From positions 12,430-76,429 of the forward strand of contig JBFLWP010000009.1 in assembly GCA_040757595.1 (NCBI GenBank): 64,000 nucleotides of DNA. The letters run 5' to 3'. Positions 20,723 through 30,444 of this stretch are shown here, piece by piece (position 1 is the stretch's first letter; every line of letters begins with the position of its first letter). Position numbers and translations under genes: made by a program. The notes below the pieces were generated by a model. The model searched no databases, was not told where the DNA came from, and saw only the letters and a list, made by a program, of their open reading frames with translations. This DNA comes from Nitrospirota bacterium. GTDB lineage: Bacteria > Nitrospirota > Nitrospiria > Nitrospirales > Nitrospiraceae.

Positions 20723-22123
20723 TCAGGGTTCGCTCGGCGCGTCGGAGATCTTCTTTAAGCGTCGATCCAAGGCGAACCGGGTCAGTCCCAGGAATTTCGC
20801 CGCCTGGCTCTTGTTGTAGTCGGCCACCCGAAGGACCTCTTCGATGATGGCTTGCTCCACCTGGGCCAGGGACTCCTTGCCCAACGCCATCTCCACCCGG
20901 ACGATCGGCTCCCCCCCCTGGTTGACGGCCGAGGCGACCCGCCGGGCCGATTCGCCCAGTTCCCGCGGCAGACAATCGGGGGCGAGGGTCTTGCCGTGGC
21001 AGAAGATCACAGCCCGCTCGATCACGTTCTGCAGCTCCCGGATATTTCCCGGATAGGAGTACCGTTCCAGAACGGCCCGGGCCGCAGGATCGATGTCCTG
21101 GACATCCTTCCCGAATTCCTGCCCGTACCGCACGAGCGCTTTCATGGCCAGGGGGATGATGTCCTCGGCCCGCCTGCGGAGCGGCGGCAGCTCGAAGGAG
21201 ACCACGTTCAGACGGAAGAAGAGATCCTCGCGGAAGGCCCCGCGCGCGACCTCCTTCTTGAGGTCCCGGTTGGTGGCCGCGATCAGCCGAAAGTCCACGG
21301 CGATGTCGTCCGTTCCGCCCACGCGCCTGAACGTCCGCTCCTGCAGAACGCGCAGCAGCTTGGCCTGCATCGCCAGGTCCAGGTCGCCGATCTCGTCCAA
21401 AAAGAGGGTCCCGCCCTCCGCCCGCTCCAGGAGCCCGAGCTTGCGCTGGGTGGCGCCGGTAAAGGCGCCGCGTTCGTAGCCGAAGAGCTCGCTCTCGAAG
21501 AGCTCGCGCGGAATCGCCGTACAGTTGACGCCGACGAAAGGCCCTCCCGCACGGCTACCGTTGTGGTGCAGGACGCGCGCGAGAAACTCCTTGCCGGTGC
21601 CCGTCTCGCCCAGAAGGAGGACGGTGGTCTTGGGGTTCTGGGCCACGTCCCGCACCTGGGCCACCAACTGCTTCATGCTCGCGCTGTTCGCGACCAGGTT
21701 GGATAGGGCGTACTGGTCGCCCCGGTTCTCCATCTCATACAGCACCCGGTCCCGGAGCGTCAGGAAGTCCAGGGCCCGTTCCACCACGCCGTCCATGCTC
21801 TCCAGATCCACGGTCTTGATCAGGAAGTCGTGGGCGCCGAGCTTCATGGCTTCAACCGCGTCCTGCACGGTGCCGTAGGCGGTCAACAGGATCACCAGCG
21901 TCTGCGGGCACTGCTGCCTCACGCGCTTGAGCGTGTCAAGGCCCGACAATCCCGGCATCTTGAGATCCAGGAGGACGATGTCGGGCGTCTCCTGCTCGAG
22001 CGCCGTCAGCATGTCGTCCCCCGATTCGAACGGGAGAACCCGGTGGCGGCGCCGGGCCAGCCGGCGCACGATCACGGACCGGATCGCCGGCTCGTCATCC
22101 GTCACGAAGATCGTCGCGTGCAT
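20723..22123 (-). CDS. Sigma-54-dependent response regulator (NtrC family)
   Basis: 466 residues in three parts. Receiver domain 1-120: acidic pocket Asp9/Asp10, phosphoacceptor Asp53, Lys103; the usual proline after that lysine is threonine. AAA+ domain about 145-385: Walker A GETGTGKE (172-179) and the sigma-54 contact loop GAFTGA (219-224). C-terminal Fis-type helix-turn-helix (KSQAAKFLGLTRFALDRRL). It should activate transcription by sigma-54 polymerase from an upstream site. It follows the kinase gene by 3 bp on the same strand, so the two form one operon. Two sigma-54 promoters with a shared element lie nearby and are its likely targets. Confidence 0.93.
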   Translation of the reverse strand: MHATIFVTDDEPAIRSVIVRRLARRRHRVLPFESGDDMLTALEQETPDIVLLDLKMPGLSGLDTLKRVRQQCPQTLVILLTAYGTVQDAVEAMKLGAHDFLIKTVDLESMDGVVERALDFLTLRDRVLYEMENRGDQYALSNLVANSASMKQLVAQVRDVAQNPKTTVLLLGETGTGKEFLARVLHHNGSRAGGPFVGVNCTAIPRELFESELFGYERGAFTGATQRKLGLLERAEGGTLFLDEIGDLDLAMQAKLLRVLQERTFRRVGGTDDIAVDFRLIAATNRDLKKEVARGAFREDLFFRLNVVSFELPPLRRRAEDIIPLAMKALVRYGQEFGKDVQDIDPAARAVLERYSYPGNIRELQNVIERAVIFCHGKTLAPDCLPRELGESARRVASAVNQGGEPIVRVEMALGKESLAQVEQAIIEEVLRVADYNKSQAAKFLGLTRFALDRRLKKISDAPSEP

Positions 22124-22126
22124 GGA

Positions 22127-24055
22127 TCAGCACCCGCCCATCGGCATCGGCTGCCGCCGCGGCACCCAGATCTGGACTGTGGTCCCCACGCCCGGCTGGC
22201 TGTCCAGCTCGATCGTGCCCCGGTGAGCCTCGATGATCTTCCGGCAGATCGCCAGTCCCAACCCCGTGCCCCGGTGCTTGCCCGACGTGAAGAACGGCTC
22301 GAACACCCGGGGGAGATCCCCCGGCGCCACCAGGCGGCCCGTGTTCGCGACCCGCATCAAGATGCCGGCCTCCTGCTCGCGGGCGACGTCGAAGGCCGTG
22401 ATGCGAAGGGTGCCGACCTCGTTCAGCGCCTCCGCCGCGTTCTGGAACACGTTGATCAGCACCTGCTTGAGTTGATCGCGGTCGGCGTGAAGTCGAGACA
22501 AATGGGGGTGCAGTTGCCGTTCCACCCTGACCCGTTTCTTGGCCAGTGCGCCGTTCTGGAGCGCCAACGCCTCCTGGACGAGCTCCTCCAGGGCGAACTC
22601 CATCGGCGCCAGTTGGCGCGGGCTGGCATAATCGATGATCTGGTTCACGATCCGGTCCAGTCGCTTGGCCTCCCGCAGGATGGTCTCCAGATCAGCGCGC
22701 CGCGAGTCGGATGCATCCGTCTCCTCCAGCAGGAGGGCCAGGGTCGAGCCGATCCCGACCAGCGGGTTTCGGATCTCATGGGCAATGCCTGCGGCCACCT
22801 GCCCCAGGGTCGCCAGCCGCTCGGCACGATTCAACCGGGACTGCAGTTGATCCAGGGCCGTAATATCCACATTGAACCCCTGATACATGACGGTCTGCCC
22901 CTCGGCGTTCCGGATCGGAATCCGCCGGCTCAGGACTTTCCTGACCGTCCCGTCCTTATGGAGGAACCGGAAGACGGTCTCGTAGGGCTGGTCCTGCTCG
23001 ACCGCCTTGGCATACTCGGTGAGAACCCGCTCCCGGTCCTCCGGGTGAATGGCCTGCCTGATGGCTTCGGGATCGCTTTCCTCATCCGGGTCGAGCCCAG
23101 CCAGGGCCCGATTGTATCGGTTGGCGAAGACCATCGGCATCCCCTTCGTCGTAAAGATCCCGATCGGCGCATGGTCCACGATGCTGCGGTAATTGGCCTC
23201 GGAGGCCGACAGGTTTTGGTTGACCGCCCGCAGCTCGGCCTCCGACTTTTCGATCTGAGCGATGTGGTCGCGGATCTGTGCGCTCATCGCGCCCATCACC
23301 CGCGTCAAGCCTCCGATCTCGTCGCCCCGATCAAGAACCGGAACGTCCGGGACGGCGCCGCCTGTCGCCGAGCCGACCGCCTTGGCCAGCGCAACCAGCG
23401 GGCCGGTGATCGAACGGGCGATGAGATGCAGCGTGACCAACATCAACAGGAGCGCCAACGTCCCGCCGCCCAGGATGACGAGGAGCAGGAACGACCGATC
23501 GCGGGAGAGCTTGGTGAGCGCCTCATTCAGCGCATCCTGCTCGAGACGGTCGAACTGATCCATCTTCTCCCGGATGGCCGTCATGATCTCCCGGCCGCGA
23601 CCCTGCTCGATGTAGTGCAGGGCGTCCACCTCGTGGCTCGATCGGATCGCGGCGATGAGCCGCTCCTTGTCGCTGATCAGCCGCTTCACCAGTTGCTGAA
23701 CCTCCCTGACGAGCGCGTGCTGCACCGCGCGATCGTGAACCATCAGCTCCAGCGTGTCCCCGACGGTCTGGATCCGGTCGTTCGCTTTCAAGTACGGCCT
23801 GAGGTAGAGCTCCTGCTTGGTCAGCACGAACCCGCGAAACCCCGTCTCCAGATCCACCACGAGCCTGAGGTACTCGGCAGCTCGCCTCTGGACGAGATAG
23901 GCGTTGTTCAGCTGCTCTTCGTCTTCCGCATAGGTCTGGACGCTCTGATAGGTGAAGGCACTCAACAACACGACCCAGAGAATGGGTCCGACGGAGGTCA
24001 GCAGCAGCTTGCGTTCGATGGGAAGATTTCGCAGGAAAAGGAACGGTCGCTTCAT
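22127..24055 (-). CDS. CHASE3-PAS sensor histidine kinase (NtrB-like)
   Basis: 642 residues. Membrane helix about 17-36, a CHASE3 sensor domain (DLETGFRGFVLTKQELYLRPY-like centre near 68-88), second helix about 187-210, HAMP linker, PAS domain about 285-400, then HisKA with AGIAHEIRNPLVGIG carrying the phosphorylated histidine, and an ATPase domain (VFEPFFTSGKHRGTGLGLAI). It senses something extracytoplasmic and phosphorylates the regulator encoded 3 bp downstream. Transcription should come from the sigma-54 promoter at 24188-24203. The signal is unknown. Confidence 0.9.
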   Translation of the reverse strand: MKRPFLFLRNLPIERKLLLTSVGPILWVVLLSAFTYQSVQTYAEDEEQLNNAYLVQRRAAEYLRLVVDLETGFRGFVLTKQELYLRPYLKANDRIQTVGDTLELMVHDRAVQHALVREVQQLVKRLISDKERLIAAIRSSHEVDALHYIEQGRGREIMTAIREKMDQFDRLEQDALNEALTKLSRDRSFLLLVILGGGTLALLLMLVTLHLIARSITGPLVALAKAVGSATGGAVPDVPVLDRGDEIGGLTRVMGAMSAQIRDHIAQIEKSEAELRAVNQNLSASEANYRSIVDHAPIGIFTTKGMPMVFANRYNRALAGLDPDEESDPEAIRQAIHPEDRERVLTEYAKAVEQDQPYETVFRFLHKDGTVRKVLSRRIPIRNAEGQTVMYQGFNVDITALDQLQSRLNRAERLATLGQVAAGIAHEIRNPLVGIGSTLALLLEETDASDSRRADLETILREAKRLDRIVNQIIDYASPRQLAPMEFALEELVQEALALQNGALAKKRVRVERQLHPHLSRLHADRDQLKQVLINVFQNAAEALNEVGTLRITAFDVAREQEAGILMRVANTGRLVAPGDLPRVFEPFFTSGKHRGTGLGLAICRKIIEAHRGTIELDSQPGVGTTVQIWVPRRQPMPMGGC

Positions 24056-24187
24056 GGCTTAGGTATCGTACGGACCGCCAAAAGCCTTTGTCAAACCACC
24101 CCCGGAGCACCCGTCCGGCGCGCAATCGGCCCGATCCGGACGGCGCATGATGCGCTCGTCGGCCCCTGACAGCCGGGGCATGAGGTC

Positions 24188-24203
24188 AGCAAGGCCGGTG
24201 CCA
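24188..24203 (-). promoter_or_regulatory. Sigma-54 promoter of the two-component operon
   Basis: On the minus strand the 16 bases match the sigma-54 consensus with one deviation: TGGCACC, four bases, TTGCT. GG and GC are exactly 10 bases apart. The kinase ATG lies about 130 bases downstream. Confidence 0.7.
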
Positions 24204-24271
24204 ATCAGGCGGGAGCGATCACCGGACGATCCGGACGCTGGCCCGGCGTGATATCGGTCAAATCGTGCGAT

Positions 24272-24294
24272 TTCGCACGGCCCGCACTGTGCGA
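24272..24294 (-). promoter_or_regulatory. Candidate activator-binding element (UAS) 1
   Basis: This 23-base stretch, read on the minus strand, matches 26007-26029 at 20 of 23 positions and has GCAC/GTGC dyad symmetry. It lies 68 bases upstream of the sigma-54 promoter at 24188-24203, where NtrC-family activators bind. Confidence 0.6.
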
Positions 24295-24403
24295 CGACCG
24301 TTCTGACCCCGTCCGCAGGTAGCAGAATCAACGTACCCGCCTCGTTTTCGCCGTTTTTCACAGGTGTTTCGTCGCTTCATCTTTTTCCAATACGGGACCG
24401 GGA

Positions 24404-24666
24404 CTTGCGGGGGAGTTTCGAGCATCTCTCTTCATCAACCGGGCGGAGGAAGCCTGGACGGTCGTGCGCGACCGATGGCCGGCGATTCCCGTCGTCTTCC
24501 TCTCCAAGGAGACCGACGACACGCAACGGCTGGTGATCCAGGGAGGCGCCTATGCTTGGGTGCCAAGCCCTACGATGCGGCCAGGCTTCTGCAAGTCGTG
24601 GGCAGGGCGGCTCAGCGTGACGCGACATGGGTAGTCGAGCGATGTGGAAGCGGGGCGGCCCGTTGA
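24404..24666 (+). pseudogene. Decayed response-regulator receiver domain
   Basis: The frame from 24404 reads AEEAWTVVRDRWPAIPVVFLS and later QGGAYAWV, the second half of a receiver domain. At about 24561 the match jumps to another frame, which continues AKPYDAARLLQVVGRAAQR to a stop at 24664. One missing G (GTG-GCC become GTGCC) would join them as WVAKPYD, the conserved lysine-proline motif. No N-terminal phosphorylation half is left. Confidence 0.6.
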
Positions 24667-24697
24667 CGATGGACGTTCCCGCCCTCAGGATTTTTCG

Positions 24698-25288
24698 ATG
24701 AAGAGACGGCGCATCCTGACCCTGATCTTCGCTGCCTGTAGCCTGTCGGCCTCCGCATTGTTCTGGGCGGAGGGCGGGGAAAGCCTGGAGACCGCCCACG
24801 GGCATCAATGGCCCCGGCCGGTTCTCGCCTCCGAGGAAGGATGTGTGACGAGACCCTGGCTGGGGGTCTCGGGAATGCTTCTGAACGAGGACATCGTGGC
24901 GAGGCTGAGCCTGCCGGTCAGGGGCGGACTCCTGGTCGAGGACGTGGAGCGGGGCAGCCCGGCAGCCCAGGCCGGGCTGCGGGTCGGGAACCTGGACGTG
25001 ACGGTGGATGGGATCCACTGGCTCGTGGACGGGGATATCCTCGTGAGCCTGGACGGACAGCCGATCCTCTCGCCTCAGCCGCTTCTGGAGGCGATGAACG
25101 AGTTGCAAGCCGGGCAGACCGTGCTGATAGAGGTGCTCCGCAACGGCACCCGCTTCCGGACCTCAGCCGTGCTGCGCGAGCACCCCAGCGGCTCGCTCCT
25201 GGTCCGGCATATCGTCGGCCAAGGAAGAGACTTGGTGGTTCCCTGCGGCCCGCTGACGCTCGGCCCGACCGGGCACGTGCGCTTCTAG
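24698..25288 (+). CDS. Secreted PDZ-domain protein
   Basis: 196 residues with a signal peptide (about 1-24). From residue 51 a PDZ domain of the HtrA type: RPWLGVSG, then RGGLLVEDVERGSPAAQAGLR and GDILVSLDGQPILSP. No protease domain is attached, so it is likely a peptide-binding or scaffold protein in the periplasm. AGGA precedes the ATG at 24698. It converges with the heme gene, 7 bp apart. Confidence 0.75.
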   Translation: MKRRRILTLIFAACSLSASALFWAEGGESLETAHGHQWPRPVLASEEGCVTRPWLGVSGMLLNEDIVARLSLPVRGGLLVEDVERGSPAAQAGLRVGNLDVTVDGIHWLVDGDILVSLDGQPILSPQPLLEAMNELQAGQTVLIEVLRNGTRFRTSAVLREHPSGSLLVRHIVGQGRDLVVPCGPLTLGPTGHVRF

Positions 25289-25295
25289 CCTGCGG

Positions 25296-25862
25296 TCATT
25301 TGTCCGCCCGGACGACGACGGCTCCCATCAGATCCCCCATCTTGAAATCCCGTCGCGTGCTGTTCGGATGCTGGTTGTGGCAATCCGCGCAGGCCTGCTG
25401 GATCGCCACGTCCGCGATCACACCCTTGACCTGGTCGCCGTCTCCGAAGATCAGCACGGACCGTCGGGGATCCGCCGCCAGCCTCTTGAGCGCGTCCACC
25501 TCCGCCTGAGTCTTGGGAAAGTTGGAGGTATAGATGGGGGTCAGCGAGATGAGCCCGATCTCCAAATCCTTGAGGTCGGCCTTGACCTCCCGTGCCGCCA
25601 GCTTCACGAACTGAAAGGGCAGCATGACCGCATGGCCGTGCTTGTTCCAGTCCTCCTTCGGCATGATCCCGGCCTTGGCCAGATGCTCGACCACGTAGTT
25701 CATGTAGACCGTGCGAAAGGCGTGGACGGTCGAGAGCACGTACCGGACCACCAGTTCCCTCGTCTGCTCCTTCGATGGCTCGGCCGACCGGCCCGACGGG
25801 ACGCCCACCGCCAGCCCCACCGCGAGCGCCACCAACCCCCAATGCCATCGTTTGCGCTCCAC
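25296..25862 (-). CDS. DUF3365 c-type heme protein
   Basis: 188 residues with a signal peptide (about 1-26). The C-terminal part holds one heme c attachment site, CADCH (in QQACADCHNQHP), and the preceding domain has the layout of DUF3365/Tll0287-like heme sensors (NFPKTQAEVDALKRL, SVLIFGDGDQVKGV). Such proteins bind heme in the periplasm and often belong to redox sensing. The start is GTG with AAGGAGG seven bases ahead. Its 5' side faces the sigma-54 regulatory region at 26007-26104. Confidence 0.8.
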   Translation of the reverse strand: MERKRWHWGLVALAVGLAVGVPSGRSAEPSKEQTRELVVRYVLSTVHAFRTVYMNYVVEHLAKAGIMPKEDWNKHGHAVMLPFQFVKLAAREVKADLKDLEIGLISLTPIYTSNFPKTQAEVDALKRLAADPRRSVLIFGDGDQVKGVIADVAIQQACADCHNQHPNSTRRDFKMGDLMGAVVVRADK

Positions 25863-26006
25863 TCCGCTCCCTCCTTGTCAGCGATGAATTACGCCGTGCA
25901 CGTCGCTCCTTTTGAATCGCGCGACCTGTCCCGGACATTCAACTCCCGGACCCAGTGCCTTGACTTTCAAACTTGGCGGGGAAACCCCGTCAGCCGAGGG
26001 ATGGCT

Positions 26007-26029
26007 TCGCACGGTGCGGACCGTGCAAA
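26007..26029 (+). promoter_or_regulatory. Candidate activator-binding element (UAS) 2
   Basis: Contains the dyad GCACGGT, four bases, ACCGTGC, and matches the element at 24272-24294 at 20 of 23 positions in the same orientation to its promoter. It lies 59 bases upstream of the sigma-54 promoter at 26089. Confidence 0.65.
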
Positions 26030-26088
26030 TCCGCTCATGACTCGTGTCCGCACCTCTGAAAGAAGGCCCGGGACAAGCCTTCCCCGCA

Positions 26089-26104
26089 TGGCACGCGGAT
26101 TGCT
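26089..26104 (+). promoter_or_regulatory. Sigma-54 promoter
   Basis: TGGCACG, four bases, TTGCT: a perfect match to the sigma-54 consensus with correct 10-base spacing between GG and GC. The gene at 26143 starts about 28 bases after the predicted start site. Confidence 0.85.
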
Positions 26105-26142: not shown

Positions 26143-26679
26143 ATGGGCAGCAGACTTTGGGTGTGGGTCGCGGCGGTGTTGCTCTGCTGGGGCAGTGCGG
26201 GATGGGCCGCCGAGCCGACTGACGGACCGGATGATCGGGAACTGGCCACGGTTGTCGTCGGGCAGGATCGTCCCGACGACTTGGAGCGTAAGCTGGGGGC
26301 CTCGGCGTGCCTCCTGCCGTCCATGTCCGGCGAACGAGTGTCCTATCTCTATAACGTCCAAGGATCGGACGGGCATTATTTTCTCAGATTCGAGGTGGAT
26401 GGCCGAGTGGACGCCATCACGGTCTCCAAGGACCCGCCGATCGCCGGGGTCTGCTACGCCCCCGTGCGCCGGGTTCTGCCCGTGAAAACCGGCAAAGGTC
26501 TGTACCTGGGCGCCACCAAGGAAGCAGTCCTTCAACTGTACGGGAGACCGGCCGAGAGTTTCGCCGTGGGACCCCTGGAGCGGTTTCGTTACGTTTCCGT
26601 GCTCGACCACTTGCACGAATGGGATCTGGTTTTCCGGGACGGACGGCTCGTGGAATGGACCGTGGTGACGGAGGAATGA
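26143..26679 (+). CDS. Secreted protein under sigma-54 control
   Basis: 178 residues with a signal peptide (about 1-22, WVAAVLLCWGSAGWA). The mature part has two cysteines (SACLLP, GVCYAP) that could pair, and YLGATKEAVLQLYGRPAES, a segment resembling the helix of BamE-like repeats. Function unknown. It is the only gene on this strand after the sigma-54 promoter before the divergent lipoprotein, so it may be a main target of the regulator encoded at 20723-22123. Confidence 0.65.
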   Translation: MGSRLWVWVAAVLLCWGSAGWAAEPTDGPDDRELATVVVGQDRPDDLERKLGASACLLPSMSGERVSYLYNVQGSDGHYFLRFEVDGRVDAITVSKDPPIAGVCYAPVRRVLPVKTGKGLYLGATKEAVLQLYGRPAESFAVGPLERFRYVSVLDHLHEWDLVFRDGRLVEWTVVTEE

Positions 26680-27193: not shown

Positions 27194-27250
27194 GGCACCC
27201 GCCTTTCTCAAAGCATGGAATGAATGGTCGAGCGAAGGGATGAACGAGCC

Positions 27251-28987
27251 ATGAAAATCATAGCACGACACGTCCTCCCTGTGCTTCCTCGGATCGGAGC
27301 CCTTCTCCTGGGCTGGTTCCTGGGGACGGTCCCGCCGTCCGCCGCATGGGCGGGCGAACCGACCTTCACCTACTACGACGACCTCCCCCCCATCGAACAG
27401 ACCGAATTGGAGGCTGTGCAAGAGCGGGTCCAGGAGGCGCGGAAGCGTCTGAAGATCATCAAAGGGGAGCCGGCCAAGCCCAAGAGGAAGCCGGTGGAGC
27501 CGCTTCCCGAGCCGGGCCCTGATGAGCGCGACACCGCGGGCGCCGTCGACTTCGAGGAAGTGGACGAGCTCCGGCAGGCGTTCAAACAGCTCTCCAAGCA
27601 GCAGCCGAAGGAAGAAGAGCCTCCTTCTCCCTCGAAACAGGCCCCCGCCCCGCCGCAGGGAAGCGAGGCCGCCACGGAGAAGGAGATTAAGGCCCTCTCC
27701 GAACGCGTGGCCGCGCTCGAAAAGGTCATGGTCGGCACCGAGGAGCAGCCAGGCCTCGCCGGCCTCATTGGTGGCTATACGCGGCGCAACGGGTTCTTTC
27801 TCATGTCGAGCGAGGGCGACTTCTTCCTCCGCATCCCCGCCCTGCTGCAGGCCGACCTCCGAACCTTCCCGAGCGGCCAGAACGGGGCGAACCCCGGCGT
27901 GAGTCCCAGTACCTTCATCCTGCAGCGGGTTCGTCCCATGATCCACTTCCGGCTCTGGCGCTACTTCCGCGGGCTCATGACGCCGGACTTCGGAAACGGC
28001 TTCACGCAGAGCCCGCTGGTCCAGGGCCGGGTGCAGACGCCCGACGCCTTCGGGGAGTGGGACTATTTCCCCGCCTTCCGGGTCCGCGTCGGCAAGTTCA
28101 AGAGCCCGATCGGCCTGGAGATGCTCCAGGCGCCGCAGAACCTCAGCTTCATGGAGCGGTCGCTCACCAGGAACCTGCTCCCCAACCGGGATCTGGGCGC
28201 GATGGTCTGGGGCGCCTTCCAGCACGGCCTCCTGGAATACCAGCTCGGCGTCTTCAACGGCTCGCCGAACGCCAACTTCTACCAGGAGAGCGCGGCCACC
28301 AGCAGCGCGAAGACGTTGGAGGCCCGGGTCTTCAGCCGTCCGTTTGTCGGCGGGGACCACTGGCTGCGCGGGCTCGGCCTGGGCGTCGGCATGAGCGTGG
28401 GATCGGTCAAGCAGGCGAGCGGGCAGGACCAGATGCAGACGGAGACCTTCAGCTACACGTTTTTCCAATACCAGTCCACCAGTGCGGTGAACGTGCAGGG
28501 GAACGGCACCCGGCTGCGATTCGCCCCCCAGATCGCCTGGTACGGCGGGCGGGTCGGCGTCATGGGCCAGTACGTCCGCAGCACCCAGGAAATGATCAAC
28601 GTCGCCAACCAACAAACGGCCACGCTGACGCACGACGCCTGGTCCGGACAGGTGTCGGTCCTCCTCACCGACGACACGGCCACGTTCGGCCGCATCGAGC
28701 CGCGGCACCCGGTCGACCCGTCGAAGGGCCAGTGGGGCGCGTGGGAGTTGGCCGTCCGCTACGCCCAACTGAACATCGACCCGGCCACCTATACGTACAA
28801 CTTCGCCGATCCCGGAGTCAGCGTCCTGCGCGCCAAGAGCACCACGGTCGGCCTGAACTGGTATCTGAACGCGAACGTGCGGATCACGGCCAACTTCGTC
28901 CACACGGATTTCACCGGCGCGAGCCGGGCCTACCATGCGGCCAGCCACGAGGACGGCCTCCTGTTCCGCACGCAACTGGTGTTCTAG
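27251..28987 (+). CDS. Phosphate-selective porin O/P family protein
   Basis: 578 residues. Signal peptide 1-36; then a charged, proline/lysine-rich region with a coiled coil about 50-165 that may anchor to peptidoglycan; from about 175 a 16-stranded-type beta-barrel of the OprO/OprP family (RVRVGKFKSPIGLEMLQAPQ, FMERSLTRNLLPNRDLGAM). It should be an outer-membrane channel for anions. Start at 27251 chosen for its signal peptide. Followed after 2 bp by a second porin of the same family. Confidence 0.85.
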   Translation: MKIIARHVLPVLPRIGALLLGWFLGTVPPSAAWAGEPTFTYYDDLPPIEQTELEAVQERVQEARKRLKIIKGEPAKPKRKPVEPLPEPGPDERDTAGAVDFEEVDELRQAFKQLSKQQPKEEEPPSPSKQAPAPPQGSEAATEKEIKALSERVAALEKVMVGTEEQPGLAGLIGGYTRRNGFFLMSSEGDFFLRIPALLQADLRTFPSGQNGANPGVSPSTFILQRVRPMIHFRLWRYFRGLMTPDFGNGFTQSPLVQGRVQTPDAFGEWDYFPAFRVRVGKFKSPIGLEMLQAPQNLSFMERSLTRNLLPNRDLGAMVWGAFQHGLLEYQLGVFNGSPNANFYQESAATSSAKTLEARVFSRPFVGGDHWLRGLGLGVGMSVGSVKQASGQDQMQTETFSYTFFQYQSTSAVNVQGNGTRLRFAPQIAWYGGRVGVMGQYVRSTQEMINVANQQTATLTHDAWSGQVSVLLTDDTATFGRIEPRHPVDPSKGQWGAWELAVRYAQLNIDPATYTYNFADPGVSVLRAKSTTVGLNWYLNANVRITANFVHTDFTGASRAYHAASHEDGLLFRTQLVF

Positions 28988-28989
28988 CC

Positions 28990-30444
28990 GTGCGGCTGCT
29001 CGCCCTCCTGCTCCTCAGCCTGGCCCTGCACGGGCTGGCTTCGGCGGCCGAGCCGACCGGCTCGGAGCAGAAGCCGCCCGTCCAGGGGCCCAGCCGGGCA
29101 TCCGAAGCCTCTCCGCCGCGCCCGCACCTGTCTCCTTCCACCAGGCAGCAGCTCCGCGACCTGGATCGCCGGTTGAGCGTGCTGGAGTCGCTCGCCGTCG
29201 GGCGCGGACACGGCCGCGGCGTTATGGAACGGGGTCTGGGCTGGTCGCCGGAGCTGAAGGAACGGGGCTTTTTCCTCTATTCCACCGACGGCCTCTTCCG
29301 GCTTCACTTAAATGGTGGTATCCAAGCACAGTACAACGCCTTTCCTGGAGGCAGGACAGGGCGGGATCCGGGCACTGAGCCGGATGGCTTCGAATTTCGA
29401 CGCGTGCGCCCAATCCTGGACTTCCGGATTGGCCGCTTCGTGCGCGGGCAGATCATGCCCGATCTGGCCCCGCGTCGCCGCACGGAGTTGTACAATGCCT
29501 TTCTCGACTTCGAGCTGTCTGAGTTGGCGCGACTGCGCGTGGGGCAGTTCAAACCGGCGCTCAGTTTGGAGAAGCTTCAAGGAGAATTCGACTTAGTCTT
29601 CGCCGAGCGCTCGCTTGTCCAGAACTTTGTACCTTTCCGTGACTTCGGCGTCCAACTCACCGGCCGCCTGTTCCGACAGCAGCTCCGCTACGATATGGGA
29701 GCATTTAACGGCTCTCCACAAGCGATCGGACCTGCTAACCTGGGGGCTCCCTCTGCTGACAACAACAAGCACCTGGTGGCCAGACTCATGCTCACCCCCT
29801 TTCTCCTCCAAGGCCCACGAGCCTTCCGACAGTTAGAATTCGGAGTCGGAGTGATGTACGGAGCCTTCACCAACACGGCTGGCCAGCAGCCGATGCTCAC
29901 GATGGGGCAGGACCGGATTATCTTCCAGTATCAGGACACGGTGACCGGAAACGGGTTTCATACCAGGATTGTCCCGCAGATGAGCTGGTTCTGGGGACGC
30001 CTCGGGGTGATGTCCCTCTTCGTCCACACCTGGGAGCCCAAGATCAACCGGGCGACCGGCCTGACCGGCACGGTGCAGAACGAGGCCTGGATGGTCCAAG
30101 GCGAGTTCGCCCTGACTGATGACGAGCCGGCCTTCATCCGGGTGACGCCCAAGCGCCCCTTCAACCCGGCCAGGCCGTTGAGCGGCAACTGGGGGGCCTG
30201 GACGATCGCAGCCCGCTATTCGGAGCAACGGGTGGATCCCCAGGCCTTCGGGCTCGGCTTCGCCAGCGCCCAGCTCTACGCCCAGACCGCCAAGGGGACC
30301 AGCGTTGCCTTGAATTGGTACGCGAGCCGGGAGTTCCGTCTCCAGGGGATCTGGGAGCACACGGACTTCTTCGGCGCCACGCCCGCCTTCTCCGCCTCGA
30401 ACCGGGCCGACCTGCTGATCGTCCGCTTCACCTTGATCTATTGA
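28990..30444 (+). CDS. Second phosphate-selective porin O/P family protein
   Basis: 484 residues, GTG start 2 bp after the previous stop. Signal peptide 1-19, a short coiled coil about 48-66, then the same barrel type (RVGQFKPALSLEKLQG, FAERSLVQNFVPFRDFGVQ). It lacks the long charged linker of its neighbour. The codons between about 29300 and 29900 use many A/T third positions, unlike both ends and the upstream porin, which suggests a recombined or imported segment. The pair is probably one transcript. Confidence 0.85.
   Translation: MRLLALLLLSLALHGLASAAEPTGSEQKPPVQGPSRASEASPPRPHLSPSTRQQLRDLDRRLSVLESLAVGRGHGRGVMERGLGWSPELKERGFFLYSTDGLFRLHLNGGIQAQYNAFPGGRTGRDPGTEPDGFEFRRVRPILDFRIGRFVRGQIMPDLAPRRRTELYNAFLDFELSELARLRVGQFKPALSLEKLQGEFDLVFAERSLVQNFVPFRDFGVQLTGRLFRQQLRYDMGAFNGSPQAIGPANLGAPSADNNKHLVARLMLTPFLLQGPRAFRQLEFGVGVMYGAFTNTAGQQPMLTMGQDRIIFQYQDTVTGNGFHTRIVPQMSWFWGRLGVMSLFVHTWEPKINRATGLTGTVQNEAWMVQGEFALTDDEPAFIRVTPKRPFNPARPLSGNWGAWTIAARYSEQRVDPQAFGLGFASAQLYAQTAKGTSVALNWYASREFRLQGIWEHTDFFGATPAFSASNRADLLIVRFTLIY

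Follow-up and report, generated by a model that had tools for sequence, protein, structure and literature searches.

A sigma-54 enhancer element shared by the promoters of an NtrC-type two-component operon and a secreted-protein gene in Nitrospira-type bacteria, with a possible role in inorganic-carbon supply

As two sigma-54 promoters beside an NtrC-type two-component system appeared to share an upstream element, we wondered whether this system controls both promoters and what such a circuit might serve. The window, that is, the whole stretch of DNA analysed here (64,000 nucleotides of a Nitrospirota bacterium, genome G000), contains the following features around the two promoters.

20723-22123, minus strand: NtrC-type response regulator with a receiver, a sigma-54 AAA+ domain with GAFTGA and a Fis-type HTH (domain search, translation)
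22127-24055, minus strand: histidine kinase with CHASE3, HAMP, PAS, HisKA and HATPase domains (domain search)
24065-24094, minus strand: sigma-70-like promoter directly ahead of the kinase gene (10 of 12 consensus positions matched; called by consensus only)
24188-24203, minus strand: sigma-54 box TGGCACCGGCCTTGCT on the side of the kinase-regulator operon (box pattern match)
24264-24295, minus strand: enhancer element of ~31 bp, GTCGCACAGTGCGGGCCGTGCGAAATCGCACG, upstream of the kinase-regulator operon (leave-out matrix score 37.1)
24272-24294, minus strand: 23-base element within it
25296-25862, minus strand: stand-alone Tll0287-like (sCache_heme) protein with a CADCH motif (domain search)
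26006-26037, plus strand: enhancer element of ~31 bp, TTCGCACGGTGCGGACCGTGCAAATCCGCTCA, upstream of the secreted-protein gene (leave-out matrix score 38.5)
26007-26029, plus strand: 23-base element within it
26089-26104, plus strand: sigma-54 box TGGCACGCGGATTGCT on the side of the secreted-protein gene (box pattern match)
26143-26679, plus strand: secreted 178-residue protein with two BamE/BLIP-like repeats (domain search, structure model)

Both boxes carry the GG(-24)/GC(-12) of the sigma-54 promoter pattern TGGCAYN5TTGCW. The boxes and the shared 23-base element were re-found exactly where the original prediction had placed them: the two copies are identical at 20 of 23 positions, have the same orientation and lie 68 (operon) and 59 bases (secreted-protein gene) from their own boxes, or 71 and 62 bases when measured from an 18-base core. 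What had to be revised was the length, as alignment of relatives showed that the element extends over ~31 bp. Derived from 32 distinct promoters, the full element reads TTCGCAC-A-GTGCG-NNYY-GTGCGAAWYCGCTC, and bases outside the search pattern are likewise fixed, mostly in 29-32 of the 32. Transcription is predicted to start at ~24177 for the operon and at ~26115 for the secreted-protein gene, and the sigma-70-like sequence is a possible basal promoter of the kinase gene.

Because GTGC and GCAC words are common at 66% GC, two GC-rich upstream regions might resemble each other by chance. However, when two upstream regions of 157 bases were compared, their best 23-base match did not exceed 18 in 1,000 Markov shuffles, and the same comparison on ~1,000 real pairs of window pieces never gave more than 19 of 23. 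Allowing up to three mismatches, 0.02 occurrences of the element pattern would be expected per window, and the search returned two, one at each promoter. The exact 18-base core occurs only at these sites in the entire 3.37-Mb genome, as does an extended 29-base form with up to three mismatches; the 18-base core with three mismatches was too loose a query (169 matches versus 112 for a reversed control). When a scoring matrix was built without the window's own two copies, these copies scored 37.1 and 38.5; no other window site scored above 7.1, and no site in 400 kb of shuffled sequence above 10.7. The element is, moreover, kept in 87 of 175 genomes. Based on the shuffle controls, the genome-wide uniqueness and the matrix scores, we rejected a chance match, the probability of which we regard as negligible.

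Searching 148 relatives with the element core plus box identified 28 genomes, every one from the Nitrospiraceae, and the reversed pattern gave none. Matches were confined to genomes with orthologues of the regulator, often at loci nearby, which is the outcome that the original prediction had named as support. A scan of 84,980 species returned 54 exact matches, 44 of them in Nitrospira or other Nitrospirota (one mislabelled Nitrosospira), with N. defluvii and N. moscoviensis both carrying the element; the other ten, mostly in high-GC Actinobacteria, look like chance matches.

Orthologues of the kinase (46-69% identity) are present in 89 other Nitrospiraceae genomes and in the sister family f3. 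We scored co-occurrence in 174 other Nitrospiraceae genomes, counting the kinase as present at E≤1e-150 and the element at no more than one mismatch. The element was found in 79 of the 89 kinase-bearing genomes versus 7 of the 85 without the kinase (Fisher p=1.8e-29; orthologous promoters are not independent, so that this and the other p-values overstate certainty). The association was also seen within the single genera g6, g10 and g18, and element and kinase co-occur even where they are far apart or on different contigs. Among the ten kinase-bearing genomes scored as lacking the element, two (G020, G028) have a degenerate element with a box and eight have no clear element, and two of the seven element-bearing genomes scored as kinase-less (G206, G230) contain kinase fragments, one of them at a contig end.

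The distance between element and box follows a strict rule. A near-perfect box lies 30-115 bases from the core in 64 of the 117 non-redundant elements, with offsets of 59-63 bases in 33 cases, 70-76 in 28 and 80, 84 and 86 in one each; no other offset in this range was seen. The two window promoters (71 and 62) represent one class each. The classes are about one helical turn apart (Rayleigh p ~1e-16 for a 10.5-base period), as expected of an activator that touches the polymerase from one face of the DNA, and even with just 20 independent promoters, 19 of 20 within these 12 of 85 offsets would give p ~1e-15. Judged by sequence arrangement only, the element is thus placed like an NtrC-family binding site, upstream of and in helical phase with the sigma-54 box.

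The regulator has the receiver, the sigma-54 AAA+ domain with GAFTGA and the Fis-type HTH that mark the NtrC family, and very probably is the activator that binds the element. Its HTH (..NK..AA..LG.TRF.LDRRL.K) is near-invariant in 13 orthologues from two families, and 13 other activators of the genome have just 7-10 of 23 HTH positions in common with it. Against the NCBIfam equivalogs NtrC, AtoC, ZraR and PEP-CTERM PrsR, it scored far below every cut-off (449 of 714 bits for AtoC, 414 of 558.6 for NtrC). The genome encodes about 25 sigma-54 activators and some of the 117 elements lie without a nearby box, so the element might be bound by another protein, activator or repressor, and its match with the kinase might reflect mere linkage. 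We consider this very unlikely, given that the co-occurrence includes distant and different-contig cases and that the HTH of this regulator hardly varies.

The same comparative evidence (co-occurrence, phased boxes and the near-invariant HTH) strongly supports the earlier proposal that the kinase-regulator operon and the secreted-protein gene are under the control of the regulator, and they probably are. Genome comparison is what reveals the regulator-element pairing, the helical phasing and the targets; we infer from it binding to the element, phosphorylation and the sign of regulation. In the mechanism that we propose, the kinase would sense an extracytoplasmic signal by its CHASE3 domain and phosphorylate its NtrC-family partner. 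The active regulator would then bind the composite 31-bp array of GTGCG half-sites, held on a fixed helix face relative to the sigma-54 promoter, and open sigma-54 RNA polymerase there. At its own operon the regulator would thereby raise expression over a basal sigma-70 level (positive autoregulation); the gene for the secreted BamE/BLIP-like protein would be the second target in this genome. We regard this mechanism as highly likely.

Whereas in this genome the element is found at two promoters only, those of the kinase-regulator operon and the secreted-protein gene, its targets in relatives are more diverse. Genes for AcrB-type RND pumps, porin-like proteins and a CBS-domain protein are among them, as is an FNT formate/nitrite transporter gene with efflux genes (MFS-OEP-HlyD) behind it. 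The element also lies upstream of sbtA in four g10 genomes, upstream of an alpha-carbonic anhydrase gene in several g6 genomes and at SulP genes upstream of the kinase. In 30 cases a SulP gene lay no more than 6 kb from the kinase gene, and in 20 cases the distance to an alpha-carbonic anhydrase gene was 25 kb or less. In G027, the genes directly upstream of kinase and regulator encode SulP, a carbonic anhydrase of CsoSCA-like type and a copy of the regulator that lacks the HTH. SulP was again found in the kinase neighbourhood of sister family f3, for instance in G064 (g24) together with the heme protein and a CitMHS-type transporter, and g32 and g34 genomes of this family have a variant element and a box 125-127 bases apart upstream of SulP. 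At the carbon genes the boxes differ from the rule above: elements at SulP and sbtA have no box at 59-86 bases and only weaker ones at 125-137, with none convincing at some SulP genes, and no box was found for the alpha-carbonic anhydrase elements. Neither SulP nor SbtA nor an alpha-carbonic anhydrase was found in G000 itself, leaving no such gene to be controlled there.

Two of these loci can be described further. The CsoSCA-like protein beside SulP at L090:7639-8886 is a distant member with CMDGR and H-x9-C motifs and scores under the curated cut-offs of the family models. At the f3 loci L333, L338, L340, L341 and L343, the variant element reads TTCGCACAGGGCACACCGTACGAATTCGCACA and is accompanied by TGGCATGTAAGTTGCS at a distance of 125-127 bases; both precede the genes of SulP (STAS-type) and the kinase.

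We also examined the secreted protein and the heme protein of the window. Orthologues of the secreted protein in G015, G018, G030 and G110 are preceded by the same element and box; used as a query against contigs of named organisms, the protein returned no relative. Against Pfam BamE it stayed below the cut-off (17.3 of 23.2 bits), and its predicted model resembles BLIP-like, DUF4309 and OsmE proteins in fold. The genes around it include a secreted PDZ protein (24644-25288) and two consecutive porin-like genes (27224-30444) that flank the circuit, and in G030 and G110 the BamE-like gene likewise has the porins as neighbours. The heme-protein gene adjoins the kinase gene in many genomes of both families and is its most deeply conserved neighbour. 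The original prediction had allowed for control of this divergent gene (start 25862), but the box search of the window revealed no sigma-54 box facing it, and we dropped sigma-54 control of the gene. Known stand-alone Tll0287/sCache_heme proteins are likewise single domains with CXXCH (here CADCH) and act as redox rather than NO-binding proteins (PMC12889525); the protein described here differs in that its gene is conserved next to that of a CHASE3 kinase. As stand-alone family members behave as redox proteins, the periplasmic heme protein may, by analogy, provide an accessory redox input to the kinase.

Downstream of promoters of the 61-base class, many relatives from several genera encode a single-helix membrane peptide of 33-42 residues, for example MVRMIKKVGDRELAWVMLAVAAVALWSTWGLAS, with the motif K..GDRE..W. 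It starts ~130 bases after the element core (L058, L086, L170, L138, L181, L182 and others); in G015 and G110 it makes up the N-terminal part of the BamE-like protein. The 33-residue peptide had no NCBIfam match.

What, then, does the system respond to? Its links in relatives to carbon transporters and carbonic anhydrases lead us to lean slightly towards a role in homeostasis of inorganic carbon (CO2/bicarbonate) and related anions. Three things weaken this role: SulP, SbtA and alpha-carbonic anhydrase are missing from this genome, boxes at the carbon genes are weak or absent, and efflux targets are numerous. As efflux and FNT genes recur among the targets, we do not claim a strict carbon-only reading. 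Indeed, efflux pumps, FNT channel, porins and CBS protein would fit nitrite, weak-acid or toxic-compound stress equally well. The same regulator-element-sigma-54 mechanism might therefore respond to nitrite, nitrous acid, redox or a toxic compound, with the carbon genes being secondary members of a general anion/envelope stress regulon. The FNT channel with MFS-OEP-HlyD efflux genes and the AcrB-type RND pump and porins under the element speak for such a signal, as does the redox type of the most conserved neighbour, and we take it as a real though lesser possibility; it leaves unaccounted for that four separate carbon-supply families (SulP, SbtA, alpha-carbonic anhydrase and CsoSCA-like carbonic anhydrase) have the element or lie near the kinase, and that the SulP link spans two bacterial families.

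The original prediction had seen a small self-amplifying envelope-sensing circuit made up of kinase, regulator and secreted protein, perhaps with the heme protein as well. Although only two promoters carry the element in this genome and the secreted protein has a modelled BamE/BLIP-like fold, this appears unlikely: no box faces the heme gene, and in relatives the element lies upstream of transport and carbon genes. The genes linked to the system there, for bicarbonate transport, carbonic anhydrase, a formate/nitrite channel and efflux, do not support envelope sensing. The explanation that joins the regulator-element-sigma-54 mechanism with the carbon role is, on balance, probably correct as a whole, the mechanism being the more certain part.

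In kind, an NtrC-type regulator acting with sigma-54 is known; the binding site, the target set and the peptide match no named family tested. NtrBC, AtoSC, ZraSR and PrsKR likewise combine a receiver-AAA+-HTH regulator with a partner kinase, dyad half-sites upstream of a GG/GC box and autoregulation, but the system described here has a CHASE3 sensor and reaches no NCBIfam equivalog cut-off. We know of no counterpart to the 31-bp GTGCG array and its target set among NtrC-family systems. The targets BicA/SulP, SbtA and carbonic anhydrase are shared with the cyanobacterial low-carbon regulators CmpR/CcmR and with proteobacterial carbon-concentrating mechanisms. CmpR and CcmR are LysR-type and work with other sigma factors, in contrast to the NtrC-type regulator and sigma-54 here. 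A literature search for sigma-54/NtrC control of carbon transporters, with most subscription papers outside its scope, returned no paper naming such a system, nor did it find a published regulon of this regulator in which the binding site is defined.

Nitrospira are among the most widespread nitrite oxidisers. Nitrospira-type bacteria fix CO2 via the reductive TCA cycle, and the N. marina genome paper lists BicA-like SulP transporters and carbonic anhydrases; when its text was searched for two-component systems, no more than a reference came up (PMC8115632). We tentatively propose that inorganic-carbon uptake in Nitrospira is controlled by a CHASE3 kinase and an NtrC-type regulator that are dedicated to this task and act, with sigma-54, through a 31-bp enhancer specific to the lineage. 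The regulon would include an apparently undescribed GDRE membrane peptide of 33-42 residues, in some species fused to the periplasmic BamE/BLIP-like domain found in the window; the peptide may provide feedback to the kinase or affect a transporter. If true, this switch may be how globally important Nitrospira-type nitrifiers manage their inorganic carbon supply. Since the analysis supplies an exact enhancer together with its regulator, the rule for its spacing and a list of targets, regulation of carbon supply in nitrite oxidisers becomes testable in the cultivable N. defluvii and N. moscoviensis.

Further regulator and kinase variants were observed at these loci. A short receiver-domain remnant, decayed in appearance, lies at 24449-24571 (plus strand) of the window and resembles stand-alone receivers in the same neighbourhood in G030, G110 and G116. 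Directly upstream of the kinase, L090:8867-10147 and L100:6847-8052 encode a second NtrC-type regulator without HTH, which could modulate the full regulator through mixed assembly. Another kinase, of 541 aa, is preceded by the element and a box at L087:864-4268 (G116) and L203 (G100); in G116 its gene is followed by that of an NtrC-type regulator with a different HTH, and this arrangement suggests a cascade to an RND pump cluster.
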